Origin: Sedimentisphaerales bacterium
GTDB taxonomy: Bacteria > Planctomycetota > Phycisphaerae > Sedimentisphaerales > Anaerobacaceae
Direction of reading: 5' to 3'
Length of the DNA stretch: 57,380 nucleotides
Assembly: GCA_016933295.1 (NCBI GenBank)
Contig: JAFGBG010000227.1
Location: 1 to 57,380 of the forward strand
Made by a program: the position numbers and the translations under genes. The notes beneath the pieces are model-generated. The model saw nothing but the letters and a program-made list of their open reading frames with translations, was not told the DNA's origin and did not search any database. Below, in pieces: positions 27,707-49,657 of this stretch (within the stretch, counting starts at the first letter, position 1; every line of letters begins with the position of its first letter).

Positions 27707-28540
27707 TTAATCGTATGAGTAGCGGCTTTCTGCGCCGACCGTAATATGAAAGACATCAGACATAAACTTATTGACACGCGTACGAAGGGTGTGATCTACG
27801 TATATGAGGTCACCAGGTTGTATGGTAAATTTGTATGCGTCGGATAAAGATTTGCTGTCAACTCCCATAGTGGCGATCAGTACTTGTCCTGAATCGTCCT
27901 GGCGGTAAATTTTCAGATAGCGAGGATCTGAAACCATATCGAGGCCGCTGGCAAATGCCAGGGCTTCCATTAGGTTATATTGGACGTCCGCTGGATACGG
28001 ATAAATACCCGATTTGTTTACAAGACCGATTACGGCAAAAACCCGCTCGCTTTCTCTCTGGTATTTTTCTATTTCACAAACCACCATTGGGCGGTTAACT
28101 ACATACTTGGGATAATATGCATCTACGATCGACGCCTCGATCTGCGAAAGTGTTTTACCTGCGACATTAATTTCTCCGATGATCGGCATAATGATAGTGC
28201 CGTCCTGACTTACCCTGACAAGATAAGGTTCGAATTCTGTTCGTCCGTAGGTTGGTCTTAGCCATTCCGGCAGGTCGGATGATATTACGCGTAAAACGGC
28301 GGGCATTTGAAATTCGATCACATCGCCGGGTATGACACGATACGGTCCAAGATAACTTTTTACACCTATTGGGTATCCTAAGTTCTTTTCAGCGTTTATA
28401 GGTGCGGCGTTATTAAATTTTTCTAATTCCGCGGGTGTGGATAAAGTTGGGCCGCAACCACCTGAAAGCAGGCCGATAAATATACAAATAGAAATAAAAA
28501 CAATCTTAATAAATAAGATTCTCATCTTTTGCTTGTGCAT
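27707..28540 (-). CDS. Outer-membrane polysaccharide export lipoprotein (Wza/OPX family)
   Basis: A 277-residue protein with a lipoprotein signal (IVFISICIFIGLLSGGCGPT, acylated Cys about residue 29). A poly-saccharide export domain follows: YLGPYRVIPGDVIEFQMPAV, then LVRVSQDGTIIMPIIGEI and VAGKTLSQIEASIVDAYYP. A SLBB-like region (RVFAVIGLVNKSGIYPYPAD) and a final IQPGDLIYVDHT complete it. The protein forms the periplasmic/outer-membrane channel for polymer export together with the Wzz-kinase. It is the first gene of the leftward operon, so the operon promoter should lie in the spacer to its right. The third copy of a GGGGG motif lies 7 bases before the ATG and may double as its ribosome-binding site. 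Confidence 0.9.
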   Translation of the reverse strand: MHKQKMRILFIKIVFISICIFIGLLSGGCGPTLSTPAELEKFNNAAPINAEKNLGYPIGVKSYLGPYRVIPGDVIEFQMPAVLRVISSDLPEWLRPTYGRTEFEPYLVRVSQDGTIIMPIIGEINVAGKTLSQIEASIVDAYYPKYVVNRPMVVCEIEKYQRESERVFAVIGLVNKSGIYPYPADVQYNLMEALAFASGLDMVSDPRYLKIYRQDDSGQVLIATMGVDSKSLSDAYKFTIQPGDLIYVDHTLRTRVNKFMSDVFHITVGAESRYSYD

Positions 28541-28547
28541 TAGATGA

Positions 28548-28595
28548 CCCCCAATTAGACTTAGACAACCCCCAATTTATTTGTCCCCCCAATTA
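28548..28595 (-). repeat. Three copies of an AATTGGGGG motif upstream of the export operon
   Basis: On the minus strand the motif (T/A)AATTGGGGG appears at 28548-28557, 28569-28578 and 28585-28595, at spacings of about 17-21 bases. The arrangement of near-identical direct repeats just ahead of the first gene suggests binding sites for a regulator, or a G-tract-driven leader element. The same motif recurs in other spacers of this window (31711, 32433, 33170 and 34686). That it is an operator is inference. Confidence 0.5.
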
Positions 28596-28957
28596 GCAAC
28601 CACAAATTGGAACAACTCTAAAAATTCCTGTTCTATTTGAAAATCTTTATCGGCCTTTATACAAATAGAGCATTAACATTTTTTGTTCTATCGTGTTCAT
28701 GATATGTGATTATGTGTGTGTTATTTCAGACAGTAATGAAATTATTATCGGCTTGTAATATTGATATTATGATATTTCCGGACCTTAATTAAGAAAAAGA
28801 CTTGCATCCGTAATTATCATTTCTGTGTCTAATAATATCTGCCATTGCTCTGTTTATAACGGCTTTTTTTCTAATCCCCGTGAATATTATAGTCATAAAT
28901 TGATTGTTCCATCATTTTGGGCCTGTTGATAAGCGTGATATTAGAACGCATAAGTAC

Positions 28958-28986
28958 TTGACAAAAAAACATAGAAATGTTAAGAT
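28958..28986 (+). promoter_or_regulatory. Sigma-70-type promoter for the aspartic-protease lipoprotein gene
   Basis: TTGACA at 28958-28963 is a perfect -35 box, separated by 17 bases from TAAGAT at 28981-28986 (4 of 6 matches to TATAAT). Transcription would start near 28993, leaving a leader of about 140 bases before the start codon at 29135. No other gene start follows on this strand. Confidence 0.7.
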
Positions 28987-29134
28987 AGGCAATATATCTT
29001 ATTTCGTGGGTTTGTACAGGAGGGTACTCTCATTATTTTAAACTTCATTGGGCAAGTGTGCCAAATCTGCCTGGTTTAATTAGGAGAAGCAAATTTCCTT
29101 ATAGGATTTGGCATCATTCAGGAGGGGGAAATAC

Positions 29135-30241
29135 ATGCGTTTTGTTATATTTTGTAGTCTTATCGGCTTGATTTGTTTCTTTGGATCAGGCTGTGCCGTC
29201 GGTCCGATTTTGCATGTCCAAGCAGATGATATAAATTCTAAGGAAACTGCCGAGGTGCGTTTGTTACGCTCAGATGGCAGAACAAATTTGTCAGAAAATT
29301 TGCTCCATGACTATATAAATCCTGATGTAGTTCATAATTCTTCCACACAAATACCTGAACATAAGATATGCCGCATTAAATACCATGAACAGTATTATAA
29401 AAATCGCTATATGGTTGTCGAAGGTCGAATTGGACTTCAGGGTCGTCGATATCCTGTTGTTCTGGATACAGGGGCGTCGCAGCCGATTTTCTTAAATGTT
29501 ACCCACGTTTTAGATAACAAAATACCGATCTATTCTATGGAAGGCGCAGTTTCAGAATTGAATGGTCATAGACTCGGCCTTTGTTACCTTCCTTTGCTTG
29601 AAATTGGTGAAATAGTCTTTACTAATAGGCCGTGTTTCTACCTTGAGCCGCCTGAGACTTTAAGTTTATTCGGTATTCAAATTGCCAGCAGAAATCCCAA
29701 TAGTGATACTGTTATTTTGGGATTGCCTGTATTAAGAGAATTTAATTATGTCATGTTTGACAATATCGATAACGAAGTGGAGTTTTCATATAATGAAACA
29801 TTTAAGGTCAGCGATGAAAGTCTTTGGGAAAGATACCCGTTATCTATAGAAGAAGATTTTCATGGTAATGTTTTTCTTTTTGTATGGATTTCAATCGCCG
29901 ATGAGAATATCGAGCTTCAATTCGATACCGGAAGCGGCAGGGGTCTGGCGGTAGGAGAAAAACTCTGGCAACAAATAAGCTCTGAAATCAAAGAATTGGC
30001 TCTTAAGAAAGGTAAGGATTTTTACCCTTATATTGGACGTCTGGAATGCAAAAGAGGAATTATTGAAAGATTTAAGGTTGGTGACAGAGTTATTAAGAAT
30101 GCGGAAATTTCGATTTTTCCGGATGACAGTCCGCTGCTTGATGAGTGTGATGGATTGTTGGGTATGCAGTATTTCCGGGATACTGAAGTAATTCTTGATT
30201 TTGAGAGATCTTTGTTATGGGTTAAGAAGCAGGATCTCTGA
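29135..30241 (+). CDS. Lipoprotein with two retropepsin-like aspartic protease domains
   Basis: A 368-residue protein. A lipoprotein signal (FCSLIGLICFFGSGC) puts the acylated Cys at about residue 20. The first DTG is in YPVVLDTGASQPIFLN (D111) and is followed by the family's closing VILGLPVLREFNYVMFD. The second is in IELQFDTGSGRGLAVG (D264), closed by CDGLLGMQYFRDTEVILDFE. Each half thus has its own D-T-G and hydrophobic-hydrophobic-Gly motif, so one chain could form a pepsin-like two-lobed active site. Substrate unknown. I chose the ATG at 29135, which follows GGAGGGGG by six bases. It is monocistronic and divergent from the export operon, suggesting an envelope role linked to it. Confidence 0.8.
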   Translation: MRFVIFCSLIGLICFFGSGCAVGPILHVQADDINSKETAEVRLLRSDGRTNLSENLLHDYINPDVVHNSSTQIPEHKICRIKYHEQYYKNRYMVVEGRIGLQGRRYPVVLDTGASQPIFLNVTHVLDNKIPIYSMEGAVSELNGHRLGLCYLPLLEIGEIVFTNRPCFYLEPPETLSLFGIQIASRNPNSDTVILGLPVLREFNYVMFDNIDNEVEFSYNETFKVSDESLWERYPLSIEEDFHGNVFLFVWISIADENIELQFDTGSGRGLAVGEKLWQQISSEIKELALKKGKDFYPYIGRLECKRGIIERFKVGDRVIKNAEISIFPDDSPLLDECDGLLGMQYFRDTEVILDFERSLLWVKKQDL

Positions 30242-30247
30242 AAAAAA

Positions 30248-30273
30248 GCGGATACTGCCGTAACAGTATCCGC
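30248..30273 (-). terminator. Rho-independent terminator for the secreted-protein gene
   Basis: A perfect 10-base-pair inverted repeat, GCGGATACTG with CAGTATCCGC around a six-base loop. On the minus strand it is followed by a run of T (the A7 just left of it on the plus strand). It lies 83 bases past the stop of the minus-strand gene at 30356-31582 and 7 bases past the stop of the plus-strand protease gene, so it may stop transcription from both sides. Confidence 0.82.
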
Positions 30274-30355
30274 AATTAGGTATGCAATTAAATTTCTTGA
30301 ATCGGATCGACAATTGATCAAAGCCCGATTCGATTATTTCCCTGTGATTCAGCTC

Positions 30356-31582
30356 TTATGGAGTAACCGGACTACGTGATTTGCCGCCGCCGTTCGAGTT
30401 ATTTTCGGCTATAGCAATACCTCCGGCGGTTGCGCCCGCAAGACCGGTAACATGAGCGGCAGTACCTATTCCATAACCTGCCCATGCAGGAGCCATAGCT
30501 ATTTTCATTCCCTGCATAGCTGGAATGCTTTTTGCCAAAATGGTTCCGATGCTCCCTATTTGTCCCGCCGAGACAATAGTGCTATAACTCTGAAGTGCTA
30601 CTGTTCGTGCAACCGGTAAACAAACAGTGACCACGGGATTTATGGCTCCTTCACAGGAAGACGCTGCACAAATATTGCCCACCTGTGCGGCACGCAATCC
30701 CTCGGATCTGGCCCAGCGAGGCAGAGGTGTTTCCTTGACTACTTCCGTATCCTTGCTTGATAGGCCCACTTTACGGATGAATTTTTCAAAATCCTTACTT
30801 AAACCGTTCATATTGACAGCAACTCCCTTGGAATCGGTTTTATACGTTGCTACCTCATGACGAAGTTTTTCGTTGGAGCTTTCGATATCACCAGTTGCTT
30901 CAAAGACAGATATGCTCAAATAAATATCTTCGATCTCAGAGTCGAAAAGGTAAGCGGCACGAATCCTTGATTTAACATCTTTCATGCCTTCCTGTGCTTT
31001 TACCACCTTGATAACAAATGGTTCAGAAAGTGCTCTGACAGCGATCATCTTTCCGTATGTATCAGTATTTTCTTCAATTGCCGTTAGTGTAAAGGTCAGC
31101 TTTTTAGGAAGTGAATAATCAAAAGATGATAGATCGAAGGTTTGCTTCCACGTCTTTCCGATGTTCTCTTTTGTGACTTTTTGGAGCGAATTTTGACAGT
31201 AGTTATGTACTTTCTCAAGAAGTGTCAGATCACGTCCGCCGGATGAAATACGTTTGCTTTTTTCATCTATTATGAATGAAAGCTCATGGGAATCCCGGTC
31301 AGTATTTGTATCGATACCTGAAAGGTCGAAATCCTTTGAGGATACCGAATATCTCACTTTATCCTGAGATAGATAGTCCTTTTCAACTGTCAATGTTGTT
31401 TCCACCTGATGCTTGAACTGCCCCTGGCCGGAATACTCCACGGTTGAAAGCATTTTATAGTGTTCTACCTCCTGATCCTGTTCATATATACCGGCTATAC
31501 AGAACGGAGTCCACAAGATTGCACACAAGGCGATTATAAATCCAAAATCTAATTTTAAACAAAGAAATCTTGCCTTTTTCAT
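30356..31582 (-). CDS. Secreted protein of unknown function with Gly/Ala-rich hydrophobic tail
   Basis: A 408-residue protein I do not recognise. A signal peptide (LDFGFIIALCAILWTPFCIA) is followed by about 250 residues of polar beta-type sequence (for example MLSTVEYSGQGQFKHQVETT and TKENIGKTWKQTFDLSSFDY). The last 120 residues change character, with three cysteines (NICAASSCEGAINPVVTVCL) and then a hydrophobic Gly/Ala-rich stretch (AWAGYGIGTAAHVTGLAGAT). It ends in a polar Ser/Gly/Pro tip. The tail could insert into a membrane or self-associate. I chose the ATG at 31582, which AAAGGAG precedes by five bases. It has its own terminator and carries a GGGGG motif about 130 bases upstream, like the export operon. 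Confidence 0.75.
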   Translation of the reverse strand: MKKARFLCLKLDFGFIIALCAILWTPFCIAGIYEQDQEVEHYKMLSTVEYSGQGQFKHQVETTLTVEKDYLSQDKVRYSVSSKDFDLSGIDTNTDRDSHELSFIIDEKSKRISSGGRDLTLLEKVHNYCQNSLQKVTKENIGKTWKQTFDLSSFDYSLPKKLTFTLTAIEENTDTYGKMIAVRALSEPFVIKVVKAQEGMKDVKSRIRAAYLFDSEIEDIYLSISVFEATGDIESSNEKLRHEVATYKTDSKGVAVNMNGLSKDFEKFIRKVGLSSKDTEVVKETPLPRWARSEGLRAAQVGNICAASSCEGAINPVVTVCLPVARTVALQSYSTIVSAGQIGSIGTILAKSIPAMQGMKIAMAPAWAGYGIGTAAHVTGLAGATAGGIAIAENNSNGGGKSRSPVTP

Positions 31583-32432
31583 TTTTGCTCCTTTCAAATC
31601 CTCTCATTTTAAGCGACTTTTTAAGGCACTGTTTTGCGGGGGAATCATACTGATATTTCAAGAATTAATTAGGTTTAATATATATTTCTTCTTTTTCGTG
31701 CAAATCTGCACCCCCATTTATTTATGACCTGCACAATATCGGCATTATTGTTATACCGACTTGAATTAAATTAAAAGCTCTATAAGAGGGTAAATGCCTT
31801 TATGCAATTAAATAACGTTTTTTTTATTAAAAGCACATTGAAGTGCGTATAATACTTAGAATGATATGCGTAATATGCTGATATTTTTTAGATATTATTT
31901 GAACTTTTCCAAGCGTTTGTTGGTATTCTGAGTTTGTTTGAATCGGCCCGTTACCATCAATTTCTGAGGTTATTTTTTACCTAACGCCAGCGGCTATATT
32001 ACAAGCTTTTTTATCCGGAAAGTTAAGTTGTGTTTCTGCATTTTGAAGCTCGCATGACTGTCAATGTTGTCTATTTTAAAGTGTATGTACGGATATTCGT
32101 ATATAGATCGGAAAGTGCTTTTAGTAGTACCTGCACGGACTTTGGAAAGCAGGACCTTCGAACTTTGACAATTGCTGATATATTTGGATTGACCTCTAAA
32201 CTTTTTAAAAAGTCACAATAACAGGTATCTCGTGGATATCGACGTCTTATTGTTAAACATATTTGTTATATTTATAGTAGTTTGTATATTTCTTATTATA
32301 AATATTCATAATGCATAGTTATTTTAATTCTTATTCTGATATTTCTTCTTTATGAGGACATGAAATAATAAAAAGCTAAAGGTAAGGCGTCGGATATGCC
32401 GATTTACCGATATAACGACGAAAGACTTACTT

Positions 32433-32453
32433 TTCCTGAAATGGGGGTTTTAG
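32433..32453 (+). repeat. TTCCTGAA-TGGGGGTT motif, copy 1
   Basis: TTCCTGAAATGGGGGTTTTA here matches TTCCTGAATTGGGGGTTCTTA at 34686-34706 apart from one substitution before the G-tract and changes after it. Two such matches of about 18 bases in non-coding DNA 2.25 kb apart are unlikely by chance and mark a shared regulatory site. No gene starts shortly after this copy, so it may drive an untranslated RNA such as the structured element at 32658. Confidence 0.45.
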
Positions 32454-32657
32454 TAGTGTTTCGGATAGGAATTGGTCGGCTTCATATAAGGTTTAGATCT
32501 ATAATATTATAGGATTTTCGAAGCTAATATGTGGGAATATCCTATCATTGCGTTACCTTTTTTTTGCCGATGATTAAAAATAGTAGTAATGGCTTAAGCC
32601 AAAATGAACTTTTGGAAGTAGGAGTAGGTTGTGAATTTAGGTTGTTTGTGTTTTGGG

Positions 32658-32751
32658 TGACTATGGGGGGAACCCAATCATGAGATGATTGGAGAGCTGC
32701 TTCGCCGAGGTCAATTCATAAGGTGGCTCATAGTTAATGCCAAATTGGCAT
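32658..32751 (+). ncRNA. Candidate structured RNA of unknown class
   Basis: TGACTATGGG (32658-32667) can pair with CTCATAGTTA (32727-32736) over ten positions, two of them G-U. This closes a domain of about 79 bases. Inside it is a perfect eight-base-pair hairpin, CCAATCAT-GAG-ATGATTGG (32674-32692), and a G/C-rich junction (GAGCTGCTTCGCCGAGGTC). Right after the domain lies a second hairpin, ATGCCAA/TTGGCAT (32737-32751). The G6 tract within and a C6 tract at about 32764 could pair in an alternative fold. It matches no riboswitch class I know. The next plus-strand gene begins about 550 bases on, so a stand-alone small RNA is as likely as a leader. Confidence 0.45.
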
Positions 32752-32857
32752 GATAAAAAAATACCCCCCTTTAGTTTTATAATTTTTTTATGATCAAATC
32801 ATCTGATTATGTGAAAAAGATTATTTAACTATAATAGTCGATTTAATAAACAAAGAC

Positions 32858-32912
32858 ACACTCTCGCCGGAAGTGTCCCTAATCCCTGTTCAACTTTACC
32901 GGTAGAGAGTGT
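32858..32912 (+). repeat. Long stem-loop in the spacer
   Basis: ACACTCTC (32858-32865) pairs with GAGAGTGT (32905-32912), and CCGG inside each arm pairs as well, giving a stem of about 12 base pairs with a small internal bulge around a loop of about 30 bases. No T-run follows on either strand, so a simple terminator is unlikely. It may be part of an untranslated RNA or a protein-binding site. Confidence 0.45.
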
Positions 32913-33303
32913 ATGTATGTTGTATTGGATGGCAAATGATAAAGAATCTTTTGCTATTAATGCGGGTAGATGAATAAAAACTTAAAAATCGTGATTTTAA
33001 TATATATGAATTTGACGAATTTACATGAGGGGGCAATTCCTTAAGCTATTCTTTTGTTGGTATTTATGGAATGCGGCATACATAATAAATATGTCTTGCC
33101 GTAAAATATTTTAACTACCTTGTTCAGAATTGCCGATTATCTTTATAGGTATTGATTAAAATTATCTTCGTATGGGGGTATAGGATAATTTAGACTCAAA
33201 CTGACCTTATTCGCGGATGTTAAGTTTTGGCAGAAGCCATATATTTATTAAGTACATTACTGAATTTAGTTTACATCGCGATTGCGAATGAAGGGATATT
33301 ACA

Positions 33304-33687
33304 ATGGATCAATTAACTACCATTTTGGTTATTGAGGATGAAGAGCGTATTCGGAATATTCTCAAATATAATCTCGAATTGGATGGTTTTGAGGTTTATT
33401 TGGCAGAAGACGGTATAACAGGCCTGGAAATTGCCCGTGAAAATCCGCCGGATCTTATTCTGTTGGATTGGATGATGCCGGGGTTGGACGGACTTCAGGT
33501 ACTCTCCGAACTAAGACATGACGACAGAACAAAGGATATTCCTGTATTTATGCTGACGGCAAAAAGCATGATGGCTGAAATAGGGCGTGCTTTGTACGAA
33601 GGCGCCGATGACTATATAACAAAGCCATTTGATGTTGTTGAATTGGGGCAGATTTTGAAAGAAAAACTGGAGAGGGCTAAAGCATAA
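33304..33687 (+). CDS. Single-domain response regulator (CheY-like receiver)
   Basis: 127 residues forming one receiver domain: acidic pocket in VIEDEERIRN (E11/D12), phospho-acceptor Asp55 in LILLDWMMPGLDGLQV, the conserved Thr in FMLTAKSMM and Lys107 in DDYITKPFD. There is no output domain, so it should act through protein contacts or as a phosphate relay. AAGGG lies eight bases before the ATG. It lies in the same direction as, and 113 bases before, the NarL-type regulator. An ATGGGGGTA motif about 130 bases upstream may be a control site. Confidence 0.92.
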   Translation: MDQLTTILVIEDEERIRNILKYNLELDGFEVYLAEDGITGLEIARENPPDLILLDWMMPGLDGLQVLSELRHDDRTKDIPVFMLTAKSMMAEIGRALYEGADDYITKPFDVVELGQILKEKLERAKA

Positions 33688-33800
33688 ATATGTTTATGGA
33701 ACTTGAAAATCGAACGTCATATCGACGTAAAATTTTATCCGATTGTTTGCACATAGTTTATGCAATTCAAATATTATTGATTTAACTGCTGGAATATGGA

Positions 33801-34460
33801 GTGGAAGATAACGGAAAGATAAGAATATTATTGGCCGATGATCACAAAGTTATGCGTGATGGTCTGAAAGCCCTATTCAACAATCACCGCGAGATAGAGA
33901 TAGTGGGCGAAACAATGTGCGGTGAATCGGTGCGGGTGGCGGTGCAGGAATCGGGGCCTGATATTATTAACCTGGGAATTAATATGAACGGTTCGGAGAG
34001 TATTGAAACCGTACGAAATCTAACTAATGAATTCCCGGATATTAAAATTATTGCTCATTCAATGTATCTGGAAAAAGCATTTATTTCAGAGATGTTCAAG
34101 GCCGGCATATTTGCATACGTTCATAAAGGACATGGTTTTAATGAGCTTTTAAATGCTATTAATGCGGCTGTGAAAAATGAGGTATTTCTTTGTAAAAAAG
34201 TTGCCGGAATTTTAATGAACGGCTATATCCAGGGTCTTTCAAGTAAAGCTGATACAGAAGCTTCGTTAACGGATCGAGAATATGAAATTCTAAAACTTCT
34301 GGCAAACGGTGGGTCCTCTAAACAAATTGCTCTGGAGCTTCACATCAGCACCAAAACCGTCGATACGCACCGTCGTCAGATAATGAACAAGCTGGACGTT
34401 TTTAGTTTGCCGGAGCTTACTAAATATGCAATTCGCTGTGGTTTGACATCGGTTAATTAG
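33801..34460 (+). CDS. NarL/FixJ-type regulator with a receiver lacking the phospho-acceptor Asp
   Basis: 219 residues. The receiver domain (about 7-122) has the acidic pair in LLADDHKVMRDGLKAL (D13, D14) and Lys109 in FAYVHKGHGF. The usual VVLMDINMP phospho-acceptor segment reads IINLGINMN, so Gly59 replaces the Asp. A LuxR-type helix-turn-helix follows (SLTDREYEILKLLANGGSSK, then QIALELHISTKTVDTHRRQI). It should bind DNA but not be phosphorylated in the normal way. The start is GTG at 33801 with only a weak GGA upstream. A plausible target is the repeated G-tract motif in the nearby spacers. Confidence 0.88.
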   Translation: MEDNGKIRILLADDHKVMRDGLKALFNNHREIEIVGETMCGESVRVAVQESGPDIINLGINMNGSESIETVRNLTNEFPDIKIIAHSMYLEKAFISEMFKAGIFAYVHKGHGFNELLNAINAAVKNEVFLCKKVAGILMNGYIQGLSSKADTEASLTDREYEILKLLANGGSSKQIALELHISTKTVDTHRRQIMNKLDVFSLPELTKYAIRCGLTSVN

Positions 34461-34685
34461 TAGAGATAACCTTTCATCGACTTTTTTTCATATTTCATAG
34501 CATTTGGTTCTCCTCGATTTTTTAATTTTTCTGATTTATACTCATACGATAGGCTATTAACTGTCTAATCATAAGCTCAGTATTCATATAAGGCTCATTC
34601 TGATATTTAGCTCAGGAATTTACTCGTTAACATCTTTATTTGTTTAGTCGAAAGACGTGTGTATATATATTGAATAGTCATTCTA

Positions 34686-34706
34686 TTCCTGAATTGGGGG
34701 TTCTTA
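34686..34706 (+). repeat. TTCCTGAA-TGGGGGTT motif, copy 2
   Basis: This is the second copy of the motif described at 32433-32453, about 250 bases ahead of the histidine kinase start and immediately before the large inverted repeat. Together with AATTGGGGG at the export operon it suggests a common regulator. The function is inferred from position and recurrence only. Confidence 0.45.
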
Positions 34707-34716
34707 ATTGCTAACG

Positions 34717-34789
34717 GATAGTACCGCTGCCCACTACGATACGTTTGATATAAAACACAACCAGGCTATTGTGGGCAGTTGGTACTATC
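34717..34789 (+). repeat. Large inverted repeat / stem-loop ahead of histidine kinase gene
   Basis: The arms GATAGTACC-gc-TGCCCAC and GTGGGCA-gtt-GGTACTATC are complementary apart from a one-base bulge. The loop is 36 bases. It could be a folded leader RNA of the kinase transcript, the terminal repeats of a very short non-autonomous mobile element, or a two-sided protein site. No target-site duplication is obvious at its edges. Confidence 0.6.
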
Positions 34790-34954
34790 TCTGTATTAGT
34801 GTGAAAATAATCAGACCGTGACTTCTCGCGGGTGAAGTAATGCAGGTTGTTTATTGTCTTACTTGGAATTTTAGGTTCCGAAAAATAAGAATTTTGTAAA
34901 TCGGGCGAGAGTTGTCGTTTTATCGCGGATTAATTTTCAATTAGGTTTAAAAAT

Positions 34955-36511
34955 ATGGAAGCTGCAGGGTGGAAAGTGTTGCTGATAGAAGACGACAAAA
35001 TAGACCAGCAGGCTTTTAAAAGATTGATCAGGGATGAAAATCTCGATTATAATTATACTTTGGCGGGAACTATAGCAGAGGCAAAAAGCATTCTCGATAG
35101 GGAGGAATTTGATGTAATAATTGCCGATTACCTGCTCAGAGACGGTACGGCTTTTGATATCCTGGATTCGTTACGAGACACTCCTGTTATTTTTGCTACT
35201 GGCGCCGGAAATGAAAAACTTGCCGTTAAAGCCATGAAAGCTGGAGCTTATGATTATCTGATAAAAAATCCTGAACGCAGCTATCTTGCAGTTTTACCAT
35301 TGATAATTAAGAACGCTGTAAACCATGCTAACATGCAAAAAGAAGTCAAGAGCTATCACGAAAATCTGGAAGGCCTGGTAAAAGAACGTACAGAACAGCT
35401 CGAAGCGGAAAAAGAGCTTTTATCAGTGACTTTTGCGAGTATAACGGACGGGATTATTGTTGTAGACGCTAATAAAAGAATTGTCCTGTTTAATAAAGTG
35501 GCTGAGATTCTTGCCGGTGTCAAACTTGAAGATGTTAAAGGCAAGGAGATCGATGATATTTTTCGGCTTGTTCACGAAAGGTCGAGAGAAATTGTTAAAA
35601 ATCCTATTGATTTGGTGTTGGCTTCTGGTGATGTTCAGACCACGATTGAACCGGACATTATTATCATAGGGAACGGACGTGAATACCCTGTTTCCGCCGC
35701 GGCGGCTCCCATTCGCAAACCTCATGGCCAAATCGGCGGAGTTGTTATGTTGCTTCATAATTTATCGCAGGAGCGAGAAATTGACCGTATTAAAAGGGAT
35801 TTTGTTTCGTCTGTTTCGCATGAATTACGAACTCCGCTGACATCGATAAAGGCGTATGTCGAAACAATCCTGCGGGATCGGAACATGTCCGAGCAGACTA
35901 AACATGAATTCTTGTTGGCTGTTGACGATGAGTCAAAGCGTTTAACTGAGCTGGTCAACGGGCTTCTTGAAATTGCTCAACTTGAATCCGGAGGTATCAA
36001 TGTGCTTAAACAATGCGTTGATATCCAGGTCGTTATCAAGCAGGTTGCATCATCTCTGCAGCAGGCGGCAAAAAGCAGGAAAATAAAAATTCAGGTGGAT
36101 ACCTTCGAGACGACTCAGCAGTTATTGGGAAATGAAAGCAAGATCCGTTCGTTGATATCGAACCTTGTTAATAATGCCATTAAGTTTACTCCGGAAGGAG
36201 GAATGGTGCGGGTTGGCATGCAATATCAACATGGAGGTATTGTTATTTATGTCAGTGACACGGGCATTGGAATACCGAAGGAAGAAATACCTAAAATCTT
36301 CGACCGTTTTTATCGTGTCCACAGATCGGGCAGGCAAATTCATGGAACAGGCTTAGGGCTTGCTATCGTAAACGAAGTAGCCGTTATACATGGCGGAAGA
36401 GTAGAAGTAGAAAGCGAATTGGGGCAGGGTACAACTTTTAAAGTCTTCTTGCCGTTGTTTGATCGGAATGAATTTGAAACTTCTGGTGCGAAGAAATGCA
36501 CAGCAAATTAG
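34955..36511 (+). CDS. Soluble sensor histidine kinase, REC-PAS-HisKA-HATPase
   Basis: 518 residues with no membrane helix. An N-terminal receiver (about 6-120) has Asp58 in DVIIADYLLRDGTAFDIL. A helical linker leads into a PAS domain (about 150-265, ASITDGIIVVDANKRIVLFN). The dimerisation domain carries the phospho-accepting His289 (SVSHELRTPLTSIKAYVET). The ATPase domain has NLVNNAIKFTPEGGMV (N box), YVSDTGIGIPKEEIPKIFDR (G1/F box) and GTGLGLAIVNEV (G2). It probably receives phosphate through its own receiver and passes it to the receiver encoded at 33304. The ribosome-binding site is weak (AGG ten bases ahead), and a big stem-loop lies in the leader. Confidence 0.93.
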   Translation: MEAAGWKVLLIEDDKIDQQAFKRLIRDENLDYNYTLAGTIAEAKSILDREEFDVIIADYLLRDGTAFDILDSLRDTPVIFATGAGNEKLAVKAMKAGAYDYLIKNPERSYLAVLPLIIKNAVNHANMQKEVKSYHENLEGLVKERTEQLEAEKELLSVTFASITDGIIVVDANKRIVLFNKVAEILAGVKLEDVKGKEIDDIFRLVHERSREIVKNPIDLVLASGDVQTTIEPDIIIIGNGREYPVSAAAAPIRKPHGQIGGVVMLLHNLSQEREIDRIKRDFVSSVSHELRTPLTSIKAYVETILRDRNMSEQTKHEFLLAVDDESKRLTELVNGLLEIAQLESGGINVLKQCVDIQVVIKQVASSLQQAAKSRKIKIQVDTFETTQQLLGNESKIRSLISNLVNNAIKFTPEGGMVRVGMQYQHGGIVIYVSDTGIGIPKEEIPKIFDRFYRVHRSGRQIHGTGLGLAIVNEVAVIHGGRVEVESELGQGTTFKVFLPLFDRNEFETSGAKKCTAN

Positions 36512-38504: not shown

Positions 38505-41417
38505 TCACATAGCATCAAGTTCAACAACAAATACGCGGTCGCCGGAGATAGTATTCAAAACATTGTTGGCTCTACCACTGCTGCCGCTAACATAAGCAGT
38601 GCCGTCGGTGTAAGGATTTCCGCCGGGAGCGCTATCTCCAATACCTGCGATTTCGAAGAACAGGTCCGCGGGATATCCACTAGTTAGAATACCAAGCAGG
38701 TCAAAGCCATACTCAGTATTGGCCGAAAGAACCACAGGTACACTGAAGGTAACGTGAATCCACTCACCTGTTCCCTGACTAGTTGTATATGTAGAGGGGA
38801 AGATATTAGACTCTTCGCCTGTGATAATATATATTGCACTATTTATAACAAATTCATCTGAACCGGATGCAGAAGGATCCGTCACACGTATACCAAGCTG
38901 ACTACCGGGCGGTGTCATATATATGGTAGTTTCACCTTGTGGATATAATACATGCTGGATCCAGAGACCAGTCATGGAATAGCCGGCAGCGTTGTCACCA
39001 GTAAGAAAAGTCTGGCCCTGTGCCGGCCTACTCATTGAAACAAGCCTGTTATCATCGCCACCGCTAATATTCTCAGAGTCTTTAGTTGGACCGACAAAGT
39101 TGGATATATCATCAGTACCAGGCGTCGGGGCTGTTGTGACAAAGTCCACCGTGGCCAATGTCTGTGAAGCAGGTGCTATCCTATACAAAGCTATATCGTC
39201 GATAAACACCATACCTGAGCCACCGGTTGATCCGATTTTCTCAAAACCAATTGTTACTTCCTTGACATTACTAAGATTAATGCCCAGATCTTCCAGGTCA
39301 ACTCTGAAACTCTGCCAGCCTTCCTGAGAAATGTTGCCGCTGAATATCTTCTTGACGCCGTCAATCTCAACATATATCTGTTCTGTGGTAGAATTATCAG
39401 AACTGCCATAGAGCCAAAGTATCAGAGCCTCGGGAGAGCCTTTGGTCCAGTCAGATCCACACGGCAGATTGGACGTGTTCGCTGTAACCTCCGATATGTT
39501 TGCCGTGGTGTTATCGTATTGCAAAGGTACCGAGAATGTGCCGTTGTGTATTGTGTCAATCTCAAGAGAAGAACCTGAGACATATCCCATTGTTGAACCA
39601 TTTACTGTCGGATTATCATATCCGTCAACCCAGGTCAAATAGACCACGTTACTGCCTTCCTGTCCAGCCTCAATGTCATTGTAGGATTCGAAATCATCCA
39701 CAAAAATATAATCGGCTGTCGTGAAATTCCAGATATCACCTTCCCAGACAGCAGTGGCATTAGCATTGTTGACCTCGTCGACTCTCCAGAAATAAGTATT
39801 GCTTAAATCAAGAGAAGGGCTGTAGTTGGCTTGATTAACGGTTGCCATTGATGCCGAACCATATTCTACCGCCTGCTGGTCGGTACTAATCAGAACATTA
39901 TGTTGCACCGCTCCCCTTCCAGCTTTCCAACCAAGAGTCATATCAATGGCAACATCCGTCTGTCCGGATTCCGGGTTGGGATACTTAGCAAAAACAGGGA
40001 TCGACCTAAATTCGACCTCGCTCAGACCATACTGGTCTAAAAGTCCGTTGCTCCAGTTGCTTTCTGCTGTAAGCCTGACATATTTTACCGAAAAATCACC
40101 AAAAGAGACTGTGATATCACTGGCATAATTTTTAGTGCCAGGAGCCTTGGTAAATTCTGAAACATTATCCAGTTGCACCCAGATTTCGCCATCGACAGAA
40201 TATTCGATCGAAACTTGCTTTAAGCCATTCCAAGAGAGAACAGTTTCTCCATTGTAATTCCATACTAACATCTCATGCAATTTATAAGCTTTGTCAAATT
40301 CATACTGAATCCATGGCAATCCGGATTCACCTTCGGCAGAAAGCCACATAGTATCAGTTTCTTTTGAATGCATATTATTGGCATCAATGCCTGAACGGTT
40401 AATAGTGTTTTCAGGGCCTTGGTCTTCCGACTGACTTGATGCCATTACAGTTATTTTTCCTTCGGGAATCGGGTATGTGAAGGATTCTATTGTGAAGTTC
40501 CAAACAGCCCCTTTAAATACTGTGTTGTCAGGTGCAGAATTAACTTCGTCAACACGCCAATAATAAGTCTGATCATATTCCAGACGGCCTGCATCAATAC
40601 TATTAATATCCTGGGCCGGACTAACCAATAGCGGGCTACTTGTATCGGCATTGGTAACATCATCGAAATTTGTGCCTAAATACACATTATGTTTGTCGGC
40701 ATATTTTCCCGGCGCCCAGCTGAGAACAACATCTCTGGCTACTTCGGTGTCATCAGGAGATGGACTTGGTTTTGATGCGTTTCCCGTGGGTTCTGTATAT
40801 TCACCCTCAAGTAAAGAACCCCCTCCTTCTTGATCAGTTGTTATAAGAATAGTGTTGCCACCCACAGCGGGCGCAAACATAAATGCTACATAGCCATTTG
40901 TATCGCTGTTGAGAAAATCCGCCAGTGCCTGACTTATTTCAGTTGACTCCCTTACTCTCACAGGCGAGGTAAATGTTAATAATATGTCGGTTACATCATC
41001 CAGATCCAGTTGAACAGGCTGATCAATAGCAGGAGTAGGATCGTTCATAAGGCCGGGTGCCGTATTCCAGGTCATACCTTCACTAACAAGATGCTCTTGC
41101 GACTCCAGCACTCCGTACACGTTCACTACGCCGCCGATGTCATGGCCTAAGTTGCTGATGCTAATATCCGAGAAAGTACACTTTAATGCACTGAGCTGTT
41201 TGAGATCGTAAGCTAAGAATCCGACATTGCGCCGTGATACAACGTCGCGGATATGCATACCTATCGCAACTTCGCTTTCGTATCTATCGGGCCCCTCATA
41301 GGTGTCATTGGAGACATAAGTATCATAAACGGGGGCTAAGCTAAATTCTTTAGCCTGAACACTGCCTTCAATAATTAGAAAAATAAGAGGGGATAAGAAT
41401 AGGAATTTCTTTAACAT
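38505..41417 (-). CDS. Large secreted multidomain protein with discoidin-like and beta-sandwich modules
   Basis: 970 residues after a strong ribosome-binding site (AAGGAGG). A signal peptide (FLFLSPLIFLIIEGSVQA) leads into a DNRLRE-like domain (about 25-195, YDTYVSNDTYEGPDRY). Then comes a beta-sandwich ending YYWRVDEVNSAPDN and an F5/8 type C (discoidin) domain (about 317-470; WIQYEFDKAYKLHEMLVWNY, VSIEYSVDGEIWVQL). A second sandwich ends YFWRVDEVNNANAT. After it lie a jelly-roll domain (575-745, YIFVDDFESYNDIEAG) and an unrecognised C-terminal domain. No catalytic domain is visible, so polysaccharide binding or cell-surface attachment is the likely role. The architecture is common in Phycisphaerae. 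It begins the pectin locus on the tRNA side. Confidence 0.8.
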   Translation of the reverse strand: MLKKFLFLSPLIFLIIEGSVQAKEFSLAPVYDTYVSNDTYEGPDRYESEVAIGMHIRDVVSRRNVGFLAYDLKQLSALKCTFSDISISNLGHDIGGVVNVYGVLESQEHLVSEGMTWNTAPGLMNDPTPAIDQPVQLDLDDVTDILLTFTSPVRVRESTEISQALADFLNSDTNGYVAFMFAPAVGGNTILITTDQEGGGSLLEGEYTEPTGNASKPSPSPDDTEVARDVVLSWAPGKYADKHNVYLGTNFDDVTNADTSSPLLVSPAQDINSIDAGRLEYDQTYYWRVDEVNSAPDNTVFKGAVWNFTIESFTYPIPEGKITVMASSQSEDQGPENTINRSGIDANNMHSKETDTMWLSAEGESGLPWIQYEFDKAYKLHEMLVWNYNGETVLSWNGLKQVSIEYSVDGEIWVQLDNVSEFTKAPGTKNYASDITVSFGDFSVKYVRLTAESNWSNGLLDQYGLSEVEFRSIPVFAKYPNPESGQTDVAIDMTLGWKAGRGAVQHNVLISTDQQAVEYGSASMATVNQANYSPSLDLSNTYFWRVDEVNNANATAVWEGDIWNFTTADYIFVDDFESYNDIEAGQEGSNVVYLTWVDGYDNPTVNGSTMGYVSGSSLEIDTIHNGTFSVPLQYDNTTANISEVTANTSNLPCGSDWTKGSPEALILWLYGSSDNSTTEQIYVEIDGVKKIFSGNISQEGWQSFRVDLEDLGINLSNVKEVTIGFEKIGSTGGSGMVFIDDIALYRIAPASQTLATVDFVTTAPTPGTDDISNFVGPTKDSENISGGDDNRLVSMSRPAQGQTFLTGDNAAGYSMTGLWIQHVLYPQGETTIYMTPPGSQLGIRVTDPSASGSDEFVINSAIYIITGEESNIFPSTYTTSQGTGEWIHVTFSVPVVLSANTEYGFDLLGILTSGYPADLFFEIAGIGDSAPGGNPYTDGTAYVSGSSGRANNVLNTISGDRVFVVELDAM

Positions 41418-41998
41418 AATAAGCCTCCTTCAAAATATTTAGAAAAACGTAATTTCAATATCAATAATTTATTACTTACTTACAGAAAACCACGTGTTTA
41501 CTCGTGGATGAATGCCAAAATCCTTGTCTCTGTGGATAGCAGAGGTAAGGTCGGTTTCAAAGAAACCGTTACAGTAAGTGCCCCGGGCTTGCCCGGGGGA
41601 ATCTACTTAGACTATTATGATATTCAGCCTCATGATATATTTTGGGCCTGATTTAACCTCCTGCTTTTCATAATACCCCATATGTAAAGGGTACAAAATT
41701 ACTCCCATGAATTTATTAGCTAAGTGAACTTATGTGTATAGTTTTACATTAATGGTCTTCACTTTTGCCTATGTATAAATTGTGATATACTAAATTTGAT
41801 TTCATTATATCAGGATTTCTTCTCAATGTCAATAATTCCGGCTTGCACTTACTTTTCGGTAGTACTGTCTCATTTTCATTTGAACAACAACTGGTTACAT
41901 CGAATTTGTTGACCAGACAAGCAGGCCAGCACAGTGGGTGAGTCAGAGATATTAACCGTCAAACAATTCGGGGATGCAGTACAAAAGAGCAACATTAG
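41418..41998. other. Spacer with a cluster of three hairpins
   Basis: About 580 bases without a gene. Between 41490 and 41598 three hairpins lie in a row: CCACG/CGTGG (41490-41507), CGGTTTC/GAAACCG (41552-41568) and CCCCGGGC/GCCCGGGG (41581-41598). The rest is AT-rich and featureless to my eye. It separates the large secreted protein from the decayed esterase. Confidence 0.6.
41490..41598. repeat. Triple-hairpin element, REP/IS200-end-like
   Basis: Three consecutive imperfect palindromes within 109 bases, the last one (CCCCGGGC-TT-GCCCGGGG) very GC-rich in AT-rich surroundings. Such arrays are seen as REP/RAYT units and at IS200/IS605 ends, and can act as folded RNA. No transposase is next to it. 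Only one copy is in the window, so its class cannot be proven here. Confidence 0.45.
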
Positions 41999-42824
41999 TC
42001 ATTGAAATAATGGCACGCCCTTCAACCAGTTTAGTCGATCCTGCCAATTGGCTGTGGGTTCAGTGCGCAGAAATTCACCAAAAGCATTATTCGGCAAGCC
42101 ACGCATAGCAGTGATTACAATCTGAGCGTTGATTTCCACTCCAACCCAGCTGGAATTAACATACTTATCTACAAACAAGGACATAATTGTTTCCTGGCCG
42201 AACTCCTCGTAGCGTCGAGCAATAAGCTCGTGCAAATTAATTAGTGGTTTTTTTCCCCTATTGGGCCACAAGAAGTGCCCAGTTAGCGTGGCTGTCAGGT
42301 GAATGCATAATTTTGCCCTCACGCCAAATATTCCGTGGTATCATGGTGCAAATGACGGCAGTCGCACCTTTGCCCCGAGTATCCGTAAAATACTTGCGAA
42401 GGTACCAACCAAATATATGGACTGTTTCTGTCTCGCCGTTCGCATTCTGATGTTCCTCAGTTTCTTCGCCGGTTCGGTGACGAGCTCCTACTTTACGATT
42501 ATCGTTGTGACCAAACTGAATCAAAACATAGTCACCCGGCTGGACACGAGCCAGGAACCGCTCTCAGTGCCCCTCAGTGATATATATCCGGCAACCGCGA
42601 GCGCCTATAGCCGTATTGACGACCTTGATCTTGTTCGGATCGAATAGTTTGGCAAAAGGCTTGCCCCAGCCGATTGCGTCGGATTTACCCCGCTGGGCTG
42701 TCGAATCCACCGCAATAAATATTGTGCGTAGCGTCGAGCATTCGATATCATTTGTGTCCGAAGTTTGATCCGTTGAATTCGCGCTGAGGAAAATCAGGAT
42801 AATAAATGGGAAAAAAACAATCAT
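41999..42824 (-). pseudogene. Decayed rhamnogalacturonan acetylesterase (SGNH/GDSL hydrolase)
   Basis: Three open pieces in order make one SGNH esterase of the rhamnogalacturonan acetylesterase type: signal peptide and IFIAVDSTAQR (block I), VVNTAIGARGCRIYITEGH, then DYVLIQFGHNDNRKV (block III) and NGETETVHIFGWYLRKYFTD, then LHELIARRYEEFG and VGVEINAQIVITAM. A TGA stop (42564-42566) stands where relatives have Trp after TEGH, in the same frame. A one-base shift at a run of seven A/T (about 42248-42254), with a TAG at 42258-42260, breaks the second junction. GDS of block I is VDS, and the catalytic His expected before EINAQ is missing. The enzyme removed acetyl groups from rhamnogalacturonan I; this copy is dead. 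Confidence 0.85.
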
Positions 42825-42926
42825 CGAATAGAAACGCTAAATTTTAGGGGCTAATAGGTTCAAAGCTAATACTAACAAAAGGAACGGACATCAAGATTTA
42901 CATGAGAGACTCATCTTTCTGTATCC

Positions 42927-44831
42927 TTATTTCATATTCTGTGATTCATTCAATTCCAAGCGGATGTAGTCGTAAATTACACCATTGTTGATAGGTCCAG
43001 CCGGTACTGTCAGAGTCAAAACATTTTTGCCTTGTTTCATCAGTGAGGCATCAAATGACAGTTCCCGTTCATACCAGATTCCATGTATCTGATGGAGAGT
43101 TATGACACTATCTCTGTAACCGAGCTTTAACGGTCCAACAGGTGTACCGTTAACTGCTACTTCTACTTGTTTCGTTCCTGTGCCGCATATGGCAAGACGC
43201 AGTGTTGCCGTTCCCCGTGGAACTTCGGCCAACTCGAAGGTAATCGTATAGGGATTGGCTATGCCTTCACCGACAACACCCCGGTAAGGAACAACGTTGG
43301 CATTGCCGTCTATGTTGTGTGGTATGTGTTGAAAATACCAGTCTTTGCTGAAATCGCTCTTGCCGATAATGAAATTGACTTCATCTGGAAAAAGTTTGGG
43401 ATATTCCAGTTGAATGCCGGGCTTGAAGTATTTATCCCCATTCATGAACTCGGTAGCTGTGCGGTTGGCAATACCGATATCCCAAAGTTGCTGACCACAC
43501 CGAACTGGTATCCATTCAAGCTGACCCAGATCAACAGATGTACCACCTGATTCAACCGTGATACTGTTTTTTACGAATTCTCCGAGAACGCCGTCAGCGA
43601 AAGCATAAAGAGAGTATGTCCCGGGTCGAACATTGGGAATACAGAAGCATCCGCTTGGATCGTCAACCTGCACCCAAAACTGATAATGTTTGGCGTTCAA
43701 TTGCCAAGTGATTTCACGGGTACCCCCAAAAATGGACGGTGCCAAGTAAGGAGGGGGGGCCAGACCGATCATTAGTTTACCAACAAACCTGCTACCTCCG
43801 GGCATCAATGGATCCTTCAATATTATTTTTCCGCTAATCGTGCTACGCTCGTTATGGGAGGGGTAATCGCAACCTGCTACCCACGCGTATGGCCATTTAT
43901 TGCTTTCCTGTTTCGCTTGCTCTTTTGCATCTTTCCACATAGCATTCGGGTCACTGCCTGTATTAATATACATGAAGAATGGCCCAATAACCTTAGTCCA
44001 GTATTCTCCGTCGGTAACCGTAACGCTGGCTCCGCCATAATGGCTGCTTCGCCAGTAATTAAGCACAACCGGCGCTGCATTTTTATCTGTGTGACGATGG
44101 CATAGAAACTCAACTTTAGTCGGTCCGCCGCTTAGATACTCTACCGATGGATTAATCATCCACCAACCGAGGTTTTTTGTTGTGCTGGAAAATCCATACG
44201 CCCGATTTTCCCACTGGTTTGCTATATATACATACTTATCCTCTTCAGGAATCGGCTCCGGATAATATTTATTGCGTTTTTCATCTACGGTGATCCAGTC
44301 GAAAATCTTTGTCAATCCCGCACAATATCGGGCTTCAGTCATCGACTGGGCAGGATAATCCGGCAAGTGCTCAAATATGCAATAGGTATAGATGCCGCAT
44401 TCGCTTTTTCCCATACTATAACGGATGTCTATATCAGCAGGAAAATCGCCATCTTTTTCAGCACCAGGCCCAAAACCCAATTTTTTGCCACCAGAAATCG
44501 CTTTAATTGAGATCTCACCTCGCATTCCATTGTTGGATTTAGGATCGATAGTTACTCGAGTGATTGTTTCAATTGCTTCGCGTGTATCATGTGACCAATA
44601 TCCGCCGGAAACTGTTTCCGTCCCTTTATATATAAGTGAAATCATACTACCGCTTTGCTTGGAAATTTGCGCTGTAACGATGCCGTTAGATATTATAAAT
44701 ATAGTATCGTTTTCTTTTATCGTCACTGGTGAAATAGGTGTTGTTTTGAAATGAGCGAAGCTTAATGTTGAGCATGCCAAATAAAACAGACATAGACTGG
44801 TTGTTCCAATAGCTTTCTCTATTTGGCTCAT
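42927..44831 (-). CDS. Rhamnogalacturonan endolyase-like polysaccharide lyase (PL4 type)
   Basis: 634 residues with a signal peptide (TTSLCLFYLACSTLSFA). The N-terminal 320 residues are a beta-sandwich catalytic-type domain of rhamnogalacturonate lyase (IFIISNGIVTAQISKQSGSM, GGYWSHDTREAIETI, IKAISGGKK). A fibronectin-type middle domain follows (GCFCIPNVRPGTYSLYAFAD). The C-terminal carbohydrate-binding-like domain has VEVAVNGTPVGPLKLGYRDS and ends LRLENE-like. This three-domain order is that of PL4 lyases, which cleave the rhamnose-galacturonate backbone of pectin by beta-elimination. It is probably secreted. It lies in line with the GH140-like gene and the decayed acetylesterase, all on the minus strand. 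Confidence 0.82.
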   Translation of the reverse strand: MSQIEKAIGTTSLCLFYLACSTLSFAHFKTTPISPVTIKENDTIFIISNGIVTAQISKQSGSMISLIYKGTETVSGGYWSHDTREAIETITRVTIDPKSNNGMRGEISIKAISGGKKLGFGPGAEKDGDFPADIDIRYSMGKSECGIYTYCIFEHLPDYPAQSMTEARYCAGLTKIFDWITVDEKRNKYYPEPIPEEDKYVYIANQWENRAYGFSSTTKNLGWWMINPSVEYLSGGPTKVEFLCHRHTDKNAAPVVLNYWRSSHYGGASVTVTDGEYWTKVIGPFFMYINTGSDPNAMWKDAKEQAKQESNKWPYAWVAGCDYPSHNERSTISGKIILKDPLMPGGSRFVGKLMIGLAPPPYLAPSIFGGTREITWQLNAKHYQFWVQVDDPSGCFCIPNVRPGTYSLYAFADGVLGEFVKNSITVESGGTSVDLGQLEWIPVRCGQQLWDIGIANRTATEFMNGDKYFKPGIQLEYPKLFPDEVNFIIGKSDFSKDWYFQHIPHNIDGNANVVPYRGVVGEGIANPYTITFELAEVPRGTATLRLAICGTGTKQVEVAVNGTPVGPLKLGYRDSVITLHQIHGIWYERELSFDASLMKQGKNVLTLTVPAGPINNGVIYDYIRLELNESQNMK

Positions 44832-44918
44832 AATTTATCCCCGAGAATGAAAAATACAAATTTTCAGTATATGTTTCAATATTACTGCTTTTTTTGGATC
44901 AATCTTTCTGTACCAGCT

Positions 44919-46367: not shown

Positions 46368-46639
46368 CATTACTCCTTTTGGATGTACGAATTTCATCAC
46401 GGCTTAACAAACCGAAAATCAGTGCTAAGTTTTCACTTATATATATTTTCTCGGCAATTAAGTCAATATTATTTCTTGGTTTCACATGGGTGTCCCTTGG
46501 GCATCTAAGTCAACCAGGTGATTTAACTTGACACAATTTAGATTCAACGCCATATTCTATCTAATCGACGGTATAAAATATTTTTAGCTGGGACTTGGAA
46601 AATGAGTTCTGTTAAGCAAATTTAAAAGTGAGGTCATGT

Positions 46640-48955: not shown

Positions 48956-49657
48956 GTATCTAAGGCTGCAAAATTTTGGTACCCATAGGAAATTAAAGCC
49001 CAGTTATACTCTGCCGCCCCTTGAAGATTTAATAGTTTTTTACCTTCAAAGGTGAAAGGTGCAACTACGATATGGTGAGTACATTTGTTTATTAAGCAGT
49101 ATTTGAAACAGATCTTAAAGCGGATAGTGATACCTCAGCTTAAGCTGCTCTCCACTCTGATAGTAGGGAATCTCTTTCGAAAAAAGATCGTTAAGACAAT
49201 GCTATGAGCTATTTAGTAAAGCAATTGAATGTTCCATAGTAGGCTACGACGATTTCTCAGTCGCTGAAAGCCATTGCACGATCAAAGCATAGCTTTTGAT
49301 TCTCTAATTTTACAACGGATGACGCACTGGAGTATCATTTACCAATAAGAATTCCATTAAGGCAATAGACGAAGTGGCAATGGCCAGCTCTCCTTATTTT
49401 AACCAGTGACAGAGCGGCCAGTTCTACAACCGAGTAAGAGACAACATGATTGTGTTTCCCGGCCTCCTGAGCTTTCTATAGCTCGTAGAAGCCGTATATC
49501 CTAATCCTTCTCAATGGGATACGATGTTCATGGGATATCTCAAACGGATTTTATAGAAGATTGACTTCAGAGTAAAAAGGTTGTATGTTAATTCCTAAAA
49601 TCGATGTCCATATCATAAGATGGATTTTCAACATTATGTTTCAATAAGGGACAAAAT
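48956..49657. other. 700-base spacer, probably decayed sequence
   Basis: No frame longer than about 50 codons looks coding on either strand. Base composition is like the neighbouring genes and not like the AT-rich spacers to the left, which suggests a decayed gene or insertion remnant. I could not match any piece to a transposase family. I see no promoter or terminator beyond AAGGGAC, the ribosome-binding site of the next gene. Confidence 0.5.

Follow-up and report, generated by a model that had tools for sequence, protein, structure and literature searches.

A locus-specific G-rich box is shared by gene leaders and a predicted structured RNA gene at a polysaccharide export locus of a Sedimentisphaerales bacterium

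The DNA analyzed here is a stretch of 57,380 nucleotides from a Sedimentisphaerales bacterium (Planctomycetota); "the window" refers to this whole stretch and not just to the region carrying the motif under study. That motif, a G-rich box with the core WTGGGGG (W is dA or dT) and here termed the G-box, is located in the spacers of a locus for polysaccharide export, a secreted protein and two-component signaling. The export genes form a minus-strand operon in the order Poly_export protein, Wzz/BY-kinase and CpsB. An aspartyl-protease-like gene is divergent to the operon, is kept beside it in relatives, and has a sigma-70-like promoter match at 28958-28986 with a TG before the -10. The gene for the secreted protein comes next, followed on the plus strand by the genes for a stand-alone receiver protein, a LuxR/NarL-type response regulator and a hybrid sensor kinase. 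Two of the G-boxes were found to belong to a predicted RNA gene located between the secreted-protein and receiver genes. This RNA gene was not suspected in the original prediction.

The original prediction took the G-boxes as the mark of a candidate regulon, plausibly read by the NarL-type protein encoded here. All copies that it listed were recovered, and one more, ATGGGGGG, was found at 32663. Three copies of AATTGGGGG precede the export gene (start 28540) on the minus strand, at 28548, 28569, and 28586, as direct repeats in tandem with intervals of 17 and 21 bp. AAATGGGGGTG at 31711 (minus strand) is about 130 bp from the start of the secreted-protein gene (ATG about 31582), while ATGGGGGTA at 33172 lies ahead of the response-regulator gene that starts at 33304. 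The longer form TTCCTGAA-WTGGGGGTT occurs at both 32433 and 34686, and these two boxes, C and F, also share CGGATAG exactly 14 nt past the G run. TTCCTGAAWTGGGGG has only these two copies in the genome and none in 40 other genomes. All eight G-box copies are in the sense direction toward the next gene.

Over the whole window the bare WTGGGGG occurs at the level of chance (13 copies vs. 12.3 expected from shuffles). The spacers of region 28541-34954 contain eight copies in 2,994 bp. In 20 stretches of the same genome, 34,082 bp of spacer had 6 copies and 256,209 bp of open reading frame (ORF) had 28; the motif is thus rare inside genes. The extended form AAWTGGGGGT was found eight times in the genome of 4,238,465 bases, as was its reversed control. 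Five of these copies are within the 6.2 kb of this locus and the other three are all inside long ORFs. The motif is therefore specific to the locus and does not mark a genome-wide regulon, and the genome scan gave no enrichment upstream of genes elsewhere. The export operon and the secreted-protein gene are likely to be co-regulated locally with the two-component genes. Clustering by chance, for a G5 motif of low information content in spacers rich in A+T, would agree with the window-wide count, but it is made highly improbable by the five of eight genomic copies falling within 6.2 kb, and by box C, which together with its flank (GTAG) is kept in four genera at a fixed place in the RNA gene. 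Chance is refuted for the cluster as a whole and is possible for single copies, e.g., that at 33172.

The relatives compared were uncultured Sedimentisphaerales/Phycisphaerae of the Planctomycetota; genomes are given as G and fetched loci as L, each with a number. The RNA gene was found through the signature GCTGCYTCGCCGAGG (compare the copy at 32663) and a GGGGGG...CCCCC pair in loci of G011 and G018 that had been fetched with the regulator. Region 32390-32800 aligns over about 380 nt with both, the order being promoter-like element, box C and a 3' domain (domain D) in all three. The distance from box C to domain D is 208-228 nt. The 5' end of the RNA gene was inferred from the promoter-like element and the 3' end from the C-run strand of a helix, P1. 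Both the G-box at 32441 and that at 32663 are inside the RNA gene, the latter as the 5' strand of helix P1. Box C has the counterparts AAATGGGGGTTTTGGTAG in G018, AAAATGGGGGGTTGGTAG in G011 and AAAATGGGGGCGTGGTAG in G024, and AAATGGGGGTTTTRGTAG within it is identical here and in G018.

A covariance model of domain D was built from the three sequences of the window, G011, and G018 and run on 170 sources. It matched G024 (29.3 bits, E 1.8e-6) and G005 (21.6 bits, E 9e-4; one place in two overlapping loci). A further homologue in G014 was counted by shared sequence and not by score. Homologues are clear in three other genera, and two weaker ones were found. The search pattern for the promoter-like element, which is independent of the covariance model, had a single spacer match in 40 newly fetched loci, and this was the RNA of G024; the element is degenerate in G014 and G005. 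With only three sequences, domain D had 90% of cells paired, compared to 84% in shuffles and 33-62% in slid alignments. Five pairs had changed on both sides, a number equalled in 25 of 500 shuffles, and the covariation score was reached in 3 of 500. The folding z-scores were -3.5 (window), -3.9, and -2.8. The predicted RNA gene is well supported by these comparisons of sequence. The five homologues directly adjoin LuxR-type regulator genes and the copy in the window is one gene away from such a gene, although most of the loci examined had been fetched around genes of this type.

No Rfam model matched within the window, none relevant was found up to E 5 in region 28400-35000, and four homologous loci gave no match up to E 1. 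Known riboswitches, including the c-di-GMP riboswitch, were therefore rejected, as no Rfam model of them matched. Neither the literature searched nor Rfam held a description of the RNA gene, which is a new element. A second candidate in the same genome, on contig C1 (14.2 bits, E 0.13), is without the signature and was not counted. An ORF of 74-75 codons with ITPKG near its end is conserved 3' of the RNA in G024 and G014 (L298, about 5148-4924 minus, and L301, about 6975-6748 minus). It was not seen in G005, G011, G018, or the window, and its product is perhaps a small winged-helix protein.

Table 1. Coordinates of the genes, the predicted RNA gene, the G-boxes and the promoter-like elements in the window.
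Feature	Position	Strand	Remark
Polysaccharide export protein (Poly_export)	27707..28540	-	Pfam PF02563, E 5e-14
Three tandem G-boxes (AATTGGGGG), export leader	28547..28594	-	Comparable boxes in G101, G083, G012
-10-like GCCGATAA of export operon	28647..28654	-	CCGATAA top 7-mer in upstream spacers
-35-like TAATG of export operon	28671..28675	-	G101 orthologue with same spacing
Aspartyl-protease-like gene	29108-30241		Divergent to export operon
Secreted protein, no named family	30356..31597	-	Orthologues in 10/40 other genomes
G-box B AAATGGGGGT, secreted-protein leader	31710..31719	-	
-10-like GCCGATAT of secreted-protein gene	31736..31743	-	Block kept in G101, 78% over 50 nt
-35-like TCAAG of secreted-protein gene	31760..31764	-	Conserved in G101
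-35-like TAAAG of RNA gene	32377..32381	+	Conserved in G011, G018, G024
-10-like GCCGATTT of RNA gene	32398..32405	+	
Predicted conserved structured RNA gene, about 370 nt	32410..32778	+	End-to-end alignment with G011, G018
G-box C, TTCCTGAAATGGGGGTTTTAGTAG...CGGATAG	32433..32468	+	5' part of RNA gene
3' domain D, GGGGGG...GCTGCTTCGCCGAGG...CCCCCC	32655..32778	+	Domain-D covariance model, fold z -3.5
Partial element GCCGATTA	33132..33139	+	Without TMAWS at 21 nt
G-box E ATGGGGG	33172..33178	+	132 nt before response-regulator gene
Stand-alone receiver protein, Asp present	33304..33687	+	PF00072, E 5.8e-29
LuxR/NarL-type response regulator without phospho-acceptor Asp	33801..34460	+	
G-box F TTCCTGAATTGGGGGTTCTTAATTGCTAACGGATAG	34686..34721	+	
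Strong hairpin directly 3' of box F, before hybrid kinase gene	34716..34790	+	-35.3 kcal/mol, z -5.7
Hybrid sensor kinase (receiver-PAS-HisKA-HATPase)	34955..36511	+	

The RNA gene, the export-operon leader and the secreted-protein leader have a bipartite element in common, TMAWS-N16-GCCGATAW (M is dA or dC, S is dC or dG, and N is any nucleotide), and in all three a WTGGGG box is found 26-62 nt past the start of the -10-like part. T[AC]A[AT][GC] was found exactly 21 nt before GCCGAT at 7 of 19 upstream sites, where 0.22 are expected per offset and the next best offset had one. Upstream of the orthologues of the export and secreted-protein genes, CCGATAA ranked first among 7-mers, with 17 copies where 1.8 were expected (p 1e-11), or 15 against 1.6 once the window was removed. 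The count with the window covered 13.1 kb of upstream spacer from 25 loci, against a background of 65.6 kb of other spacer. The 6-mers CCGATA, TGGGGT, and GGGGTT were near the top of the same count. Copies of the window or its own genome (L001-L011) were omitted from the locus scans for the element, L041 from the spacing scan, and the sister genomes L125 and L134 from the list of 19 sites and from one recount without the window.

A scan of all fetched loci, apart from those omitted as above, for TMAAG-N16-GCCGAWWW gave nine matches, seven of them in spacers and five with WTGGGG in the next 60 nt. Sixteen other spacings pooled gave 49 matches, of which nine were in spacers and one was followed by WTGGGG; spacings N15 and N17 gave six and three matches, none with a G-box. 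Since the element was first spotted by eye and the loci had been collected around genes of this kind, it is the comparison of spacings that serves as a fair control. WTGGG was found within 70 nt of 7 of 12 CCGATAA sites (two of the seven being sister genomes), compared to 244 of 2762 spacer windows and to 52 of 326 windows elsewhere in those leaders. Distant export paralogues were without the promoter-like element, and the export orthologues L200 and L201 from another family were uninformative. In G155, of another family of the order, TAAAGTTT...GCCGAAAA was seen in a spacer with the same 21-nt offset (L208, about 2548-2580).

The published sigma-28 promoter octamers are TAAAGTTT-n11-GCCGATAA (PMC2859248). 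The element resembles sigma-28 (FliA/WhiG) promoters in its -10 octamer GCCGATAW and the TMAAG start of its -35, and the genome has two FliA/WhiG-type sigma genes above the TIGR02479 cut-off, on contigs C152 and C270. It differs in that TMAWS is separated from the -10 octamer by N16 and not N14, the offset is 21 and not 19, and a G-box follows. We take the element to be a probable promoter, of longer spacing, for a FliA/WhiG-like sigma factor of the sigma-28 family. This candidate promoter would serve the export operon, the secreted-protein gene and the RNA gene (about 32410-32778). Alternatively, TMAWS-N16-GCCGATAW could be a bipartite operator with halves two helical turns apart. Half-sites 21 bp apart would suit such an operator, and so would the several copies of CCGATAA before one gene in G012 and in the window, but both halves match the published sigma-28 octamers (PMC2859248) and two genes of that sigma family are present; we regard the operator as possible though doubtful. 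CCGATAA as a genome-wide operator was rejected, GCCGATAAA being found 166 times (reversed control 104) and, among 30 places fetched, in one spacer outside the locus. A sigma-54 promoter (GG-N10-GC, TTGC) was looked for by eye and rejected; TTGC had that spacing only at box F and the G101 box.

Export orthologues were found in 20 of 89 genomes of the family, this one included. Upstream of export and secreted-protein orthologues, leaving out the window, WTGGGG was found 21 times where 7.7 were expected, whereas the full WTGGGGG was found 7 times with 3.4 expected (p = 0.06). The motif is thus conserved in part ahead of orthologues and, being rare inside genes as well, withstands both of the refuting conditions set in the original prediction. 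In G101, which has the nearest export orthologue, GCCGATAAA is followed by AAATGGGGGTTGTTAATTGC in the same order as in the window, 57 nt apart compared to 62 nt. This leader stands before a broken duplicate of the N-terminal part of the export gene (L117, about 7976-8220 minus), and the intact gene follows downstream.

The start-proximal export G-box is in the Shine-Dalgarno position, and in G083 and G012 a G5 box is likewise located 6-8 nt from the export start codon. This raises the question whether most boxes simply serve as G-rich Shine-Dalgarno sequences, either for the export gene or for short ORFs in the leaders, and have no regulator of their own. An ATG, GTG, or TTG is found 7-9 nt after the G run in six of eight boxes against a background of 0.17, in line with this explanation. 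The candidate leader ORFs are, however, tiny (2, 4, 12, 18, and 37 codons), among 200 first starts of this genome just 2 have GGGGG at the Shine-Dalgarno position, one being this export gene, and the RNA gene is left unexplained. We consider the explanation improbable.

A further alternative is that the G-box is a DNA operator, an asymmetric G-rich direct repeat bound by a LuxR/NarL-type regulator encoded locally or elsewhere. The boxes of GerE (RWWTRGGY) and MalT are G-rich asymmetric sites of LuxR-type helix-turn-helix proteins, and the boxes seen here are alike in being G-rich asymmetric direct repeats. They differ in being downstream of the promoter-like element, and their binder is only putative. 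The locus specificity and the tandem repeats before the export gene fit an operator, as do the LuxR-type genes that adjoin the RNA homologues and, in G102, G070, and G006, the secreted-protein gene. The local NarL-type protein, proposed originally as the reader of the motif, is not supported in that role. It carries Gly at the position of the phospho-acceptor Asp (NLGINMNG), where the aligned homologues have Asp in eight of nine and Glu in one of nine, and G101 and G012 keep the elements with no such regulator gene in the 20 kb fetched. The Glu variant is the homologue of G102 (L120), which is encoded beside the secreted-protein gene. In addition, the boxes lie downstream of the promoter-like element and reach the start codon, which is poor for activation, and one copy is half of an RNA helix. 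A DNA operator is on balance unlikely.

Two copies are in the RNA gene and the rest in leaders, several of them behind a shared element, and this speaks for a local module more than for a genome-wide regulon bound by a protein. We therefore lean toward regarding the G-box as part of a local expression module of RNA and promoter, in which the box acts in RNA. The position of the box past the promoter-like element would place WTGGGG(G) inside the transcript near its 5' end, and as element and box precede RNA and leaders alike, the RNA would carry the box of the messenger leaders. The box would then most likely work in RNA, as a shared binding site through which the RNA and the leaders compete for a single translational regulator, much as in Gac/Rsm; alternatively, it may be a ribosome-access element that is freed or blocked by the C-run of the RNA. 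With the box in a structured RNA and at the export ribosome site, titration of a regulator is the best analogy.

In the Gac/Rsm system (GacA - RsmX/Y/Z - RsmA/CsrA), which controls exopolysaccharide, RsmA reportedly acts on the psl 5' leader (PMC2984543). The locus resembles this system in having a LuxR-type regulator gene beside the RNA gene, and in the G-rich motif common to the RNA and the export leader, once at the Shine-Dalgarno site. It differs in its box, which is WTGGGGG and not ANGGA, in the sequence of the RNA, and in the receiver without the phospho-acceptor Asp. ANGGA in hairpin loops, as in Gac/Rsm, was not found for the boxes, and GGA is directly in the box only at 32663 and 28586. 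The icaR 3'-UTR of Staphylococcus (PMC3868564) is a further system for comparison. A UCCCC/C-rich stretch in it reportedly pairs with the Shine-Dalgarno sequence. The C-run of the RNA described here could similarly pair with the G-rich ribosome site of a polysaccharide system, with the difference that it is held in its own helix P1.

Several observations weigh against a module acting in RNA. For the RNA gene, the match of domain D in G014 is weak (12.6 bits, E 0.26-0.57), box C was not found in the homologues of G014 and G005, and domain D of G024, as delimited here, gave no better fold than its shuffles (z -0.64) and is without the C-run. The computed energies of duplexes between RNA and leaders were uninformative, and the C-run is already paired within helix P1. 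For the promoter, the -35 pattern was picked after the sites had been inspected and the two parts lie 2 bp further apart than in the E. coli sigma-28 consensus. A search of 30 fetched loci for the classical TAAA-N15-GCCGATA gave 32 matches, of which 3 fell in spacers and none of these had N15; TAAA at N15 was not enriched in spacers. GCCGAT is absent upstream of box F (34694) at the usual distance and box E is without TMAWS, so that boxes E and F fit the layout of promoter plus box in part only. GGGGG is as dense upstream as in the remaining spacers of those loci (2.36 per kb in either case), and the sense bias of boxes in relatives is 17 vs. 7 (p = 0.06). Whatever the mode of action of the box, its locus specificity is shown here, and so is the conservation of the RNA and of the arrangement of promoter-like element and box.

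The secreted protein of about 400 amino acids has conserved cysteines and a Gly-rich tail, had no Pfam or NCBIfam matches, and is encoded beside the export operon in several genera. Region 38505-51775 of the window contains genes for a rhamnogalacturonan lyase, an apiosidase-like enzyme and a GH127-type enzyme, which suggests a cluster for utilization of plant polysaccharides.

To our knowledge, small RNAs and promoter classes have been little studied in Planctomycetota. A broader proposal, which we put forward as speculative and on the unlikely side, is that the locus is a separately evolved planctomycetal counterpart of Gac/Rsm. The RNA beside the LuxR-type regulator would share the sigma-28-like promoter of the export operon and the secreted protein, translation would be controlled through the G5 box and an RNA-binding protein, and the regulator would be independent of phosphorylation. 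If the module exists as described, a response regulator without a phosphorylation site is retained beside the RNA. It would also yield a covariance model for an RNA gene, a defined consensus for a candidate sigma-28-like promoter and a box common to the leaders, and exopolysaccharide export, a secreted protein without known family and the local signaling genes would form one testable circuit.

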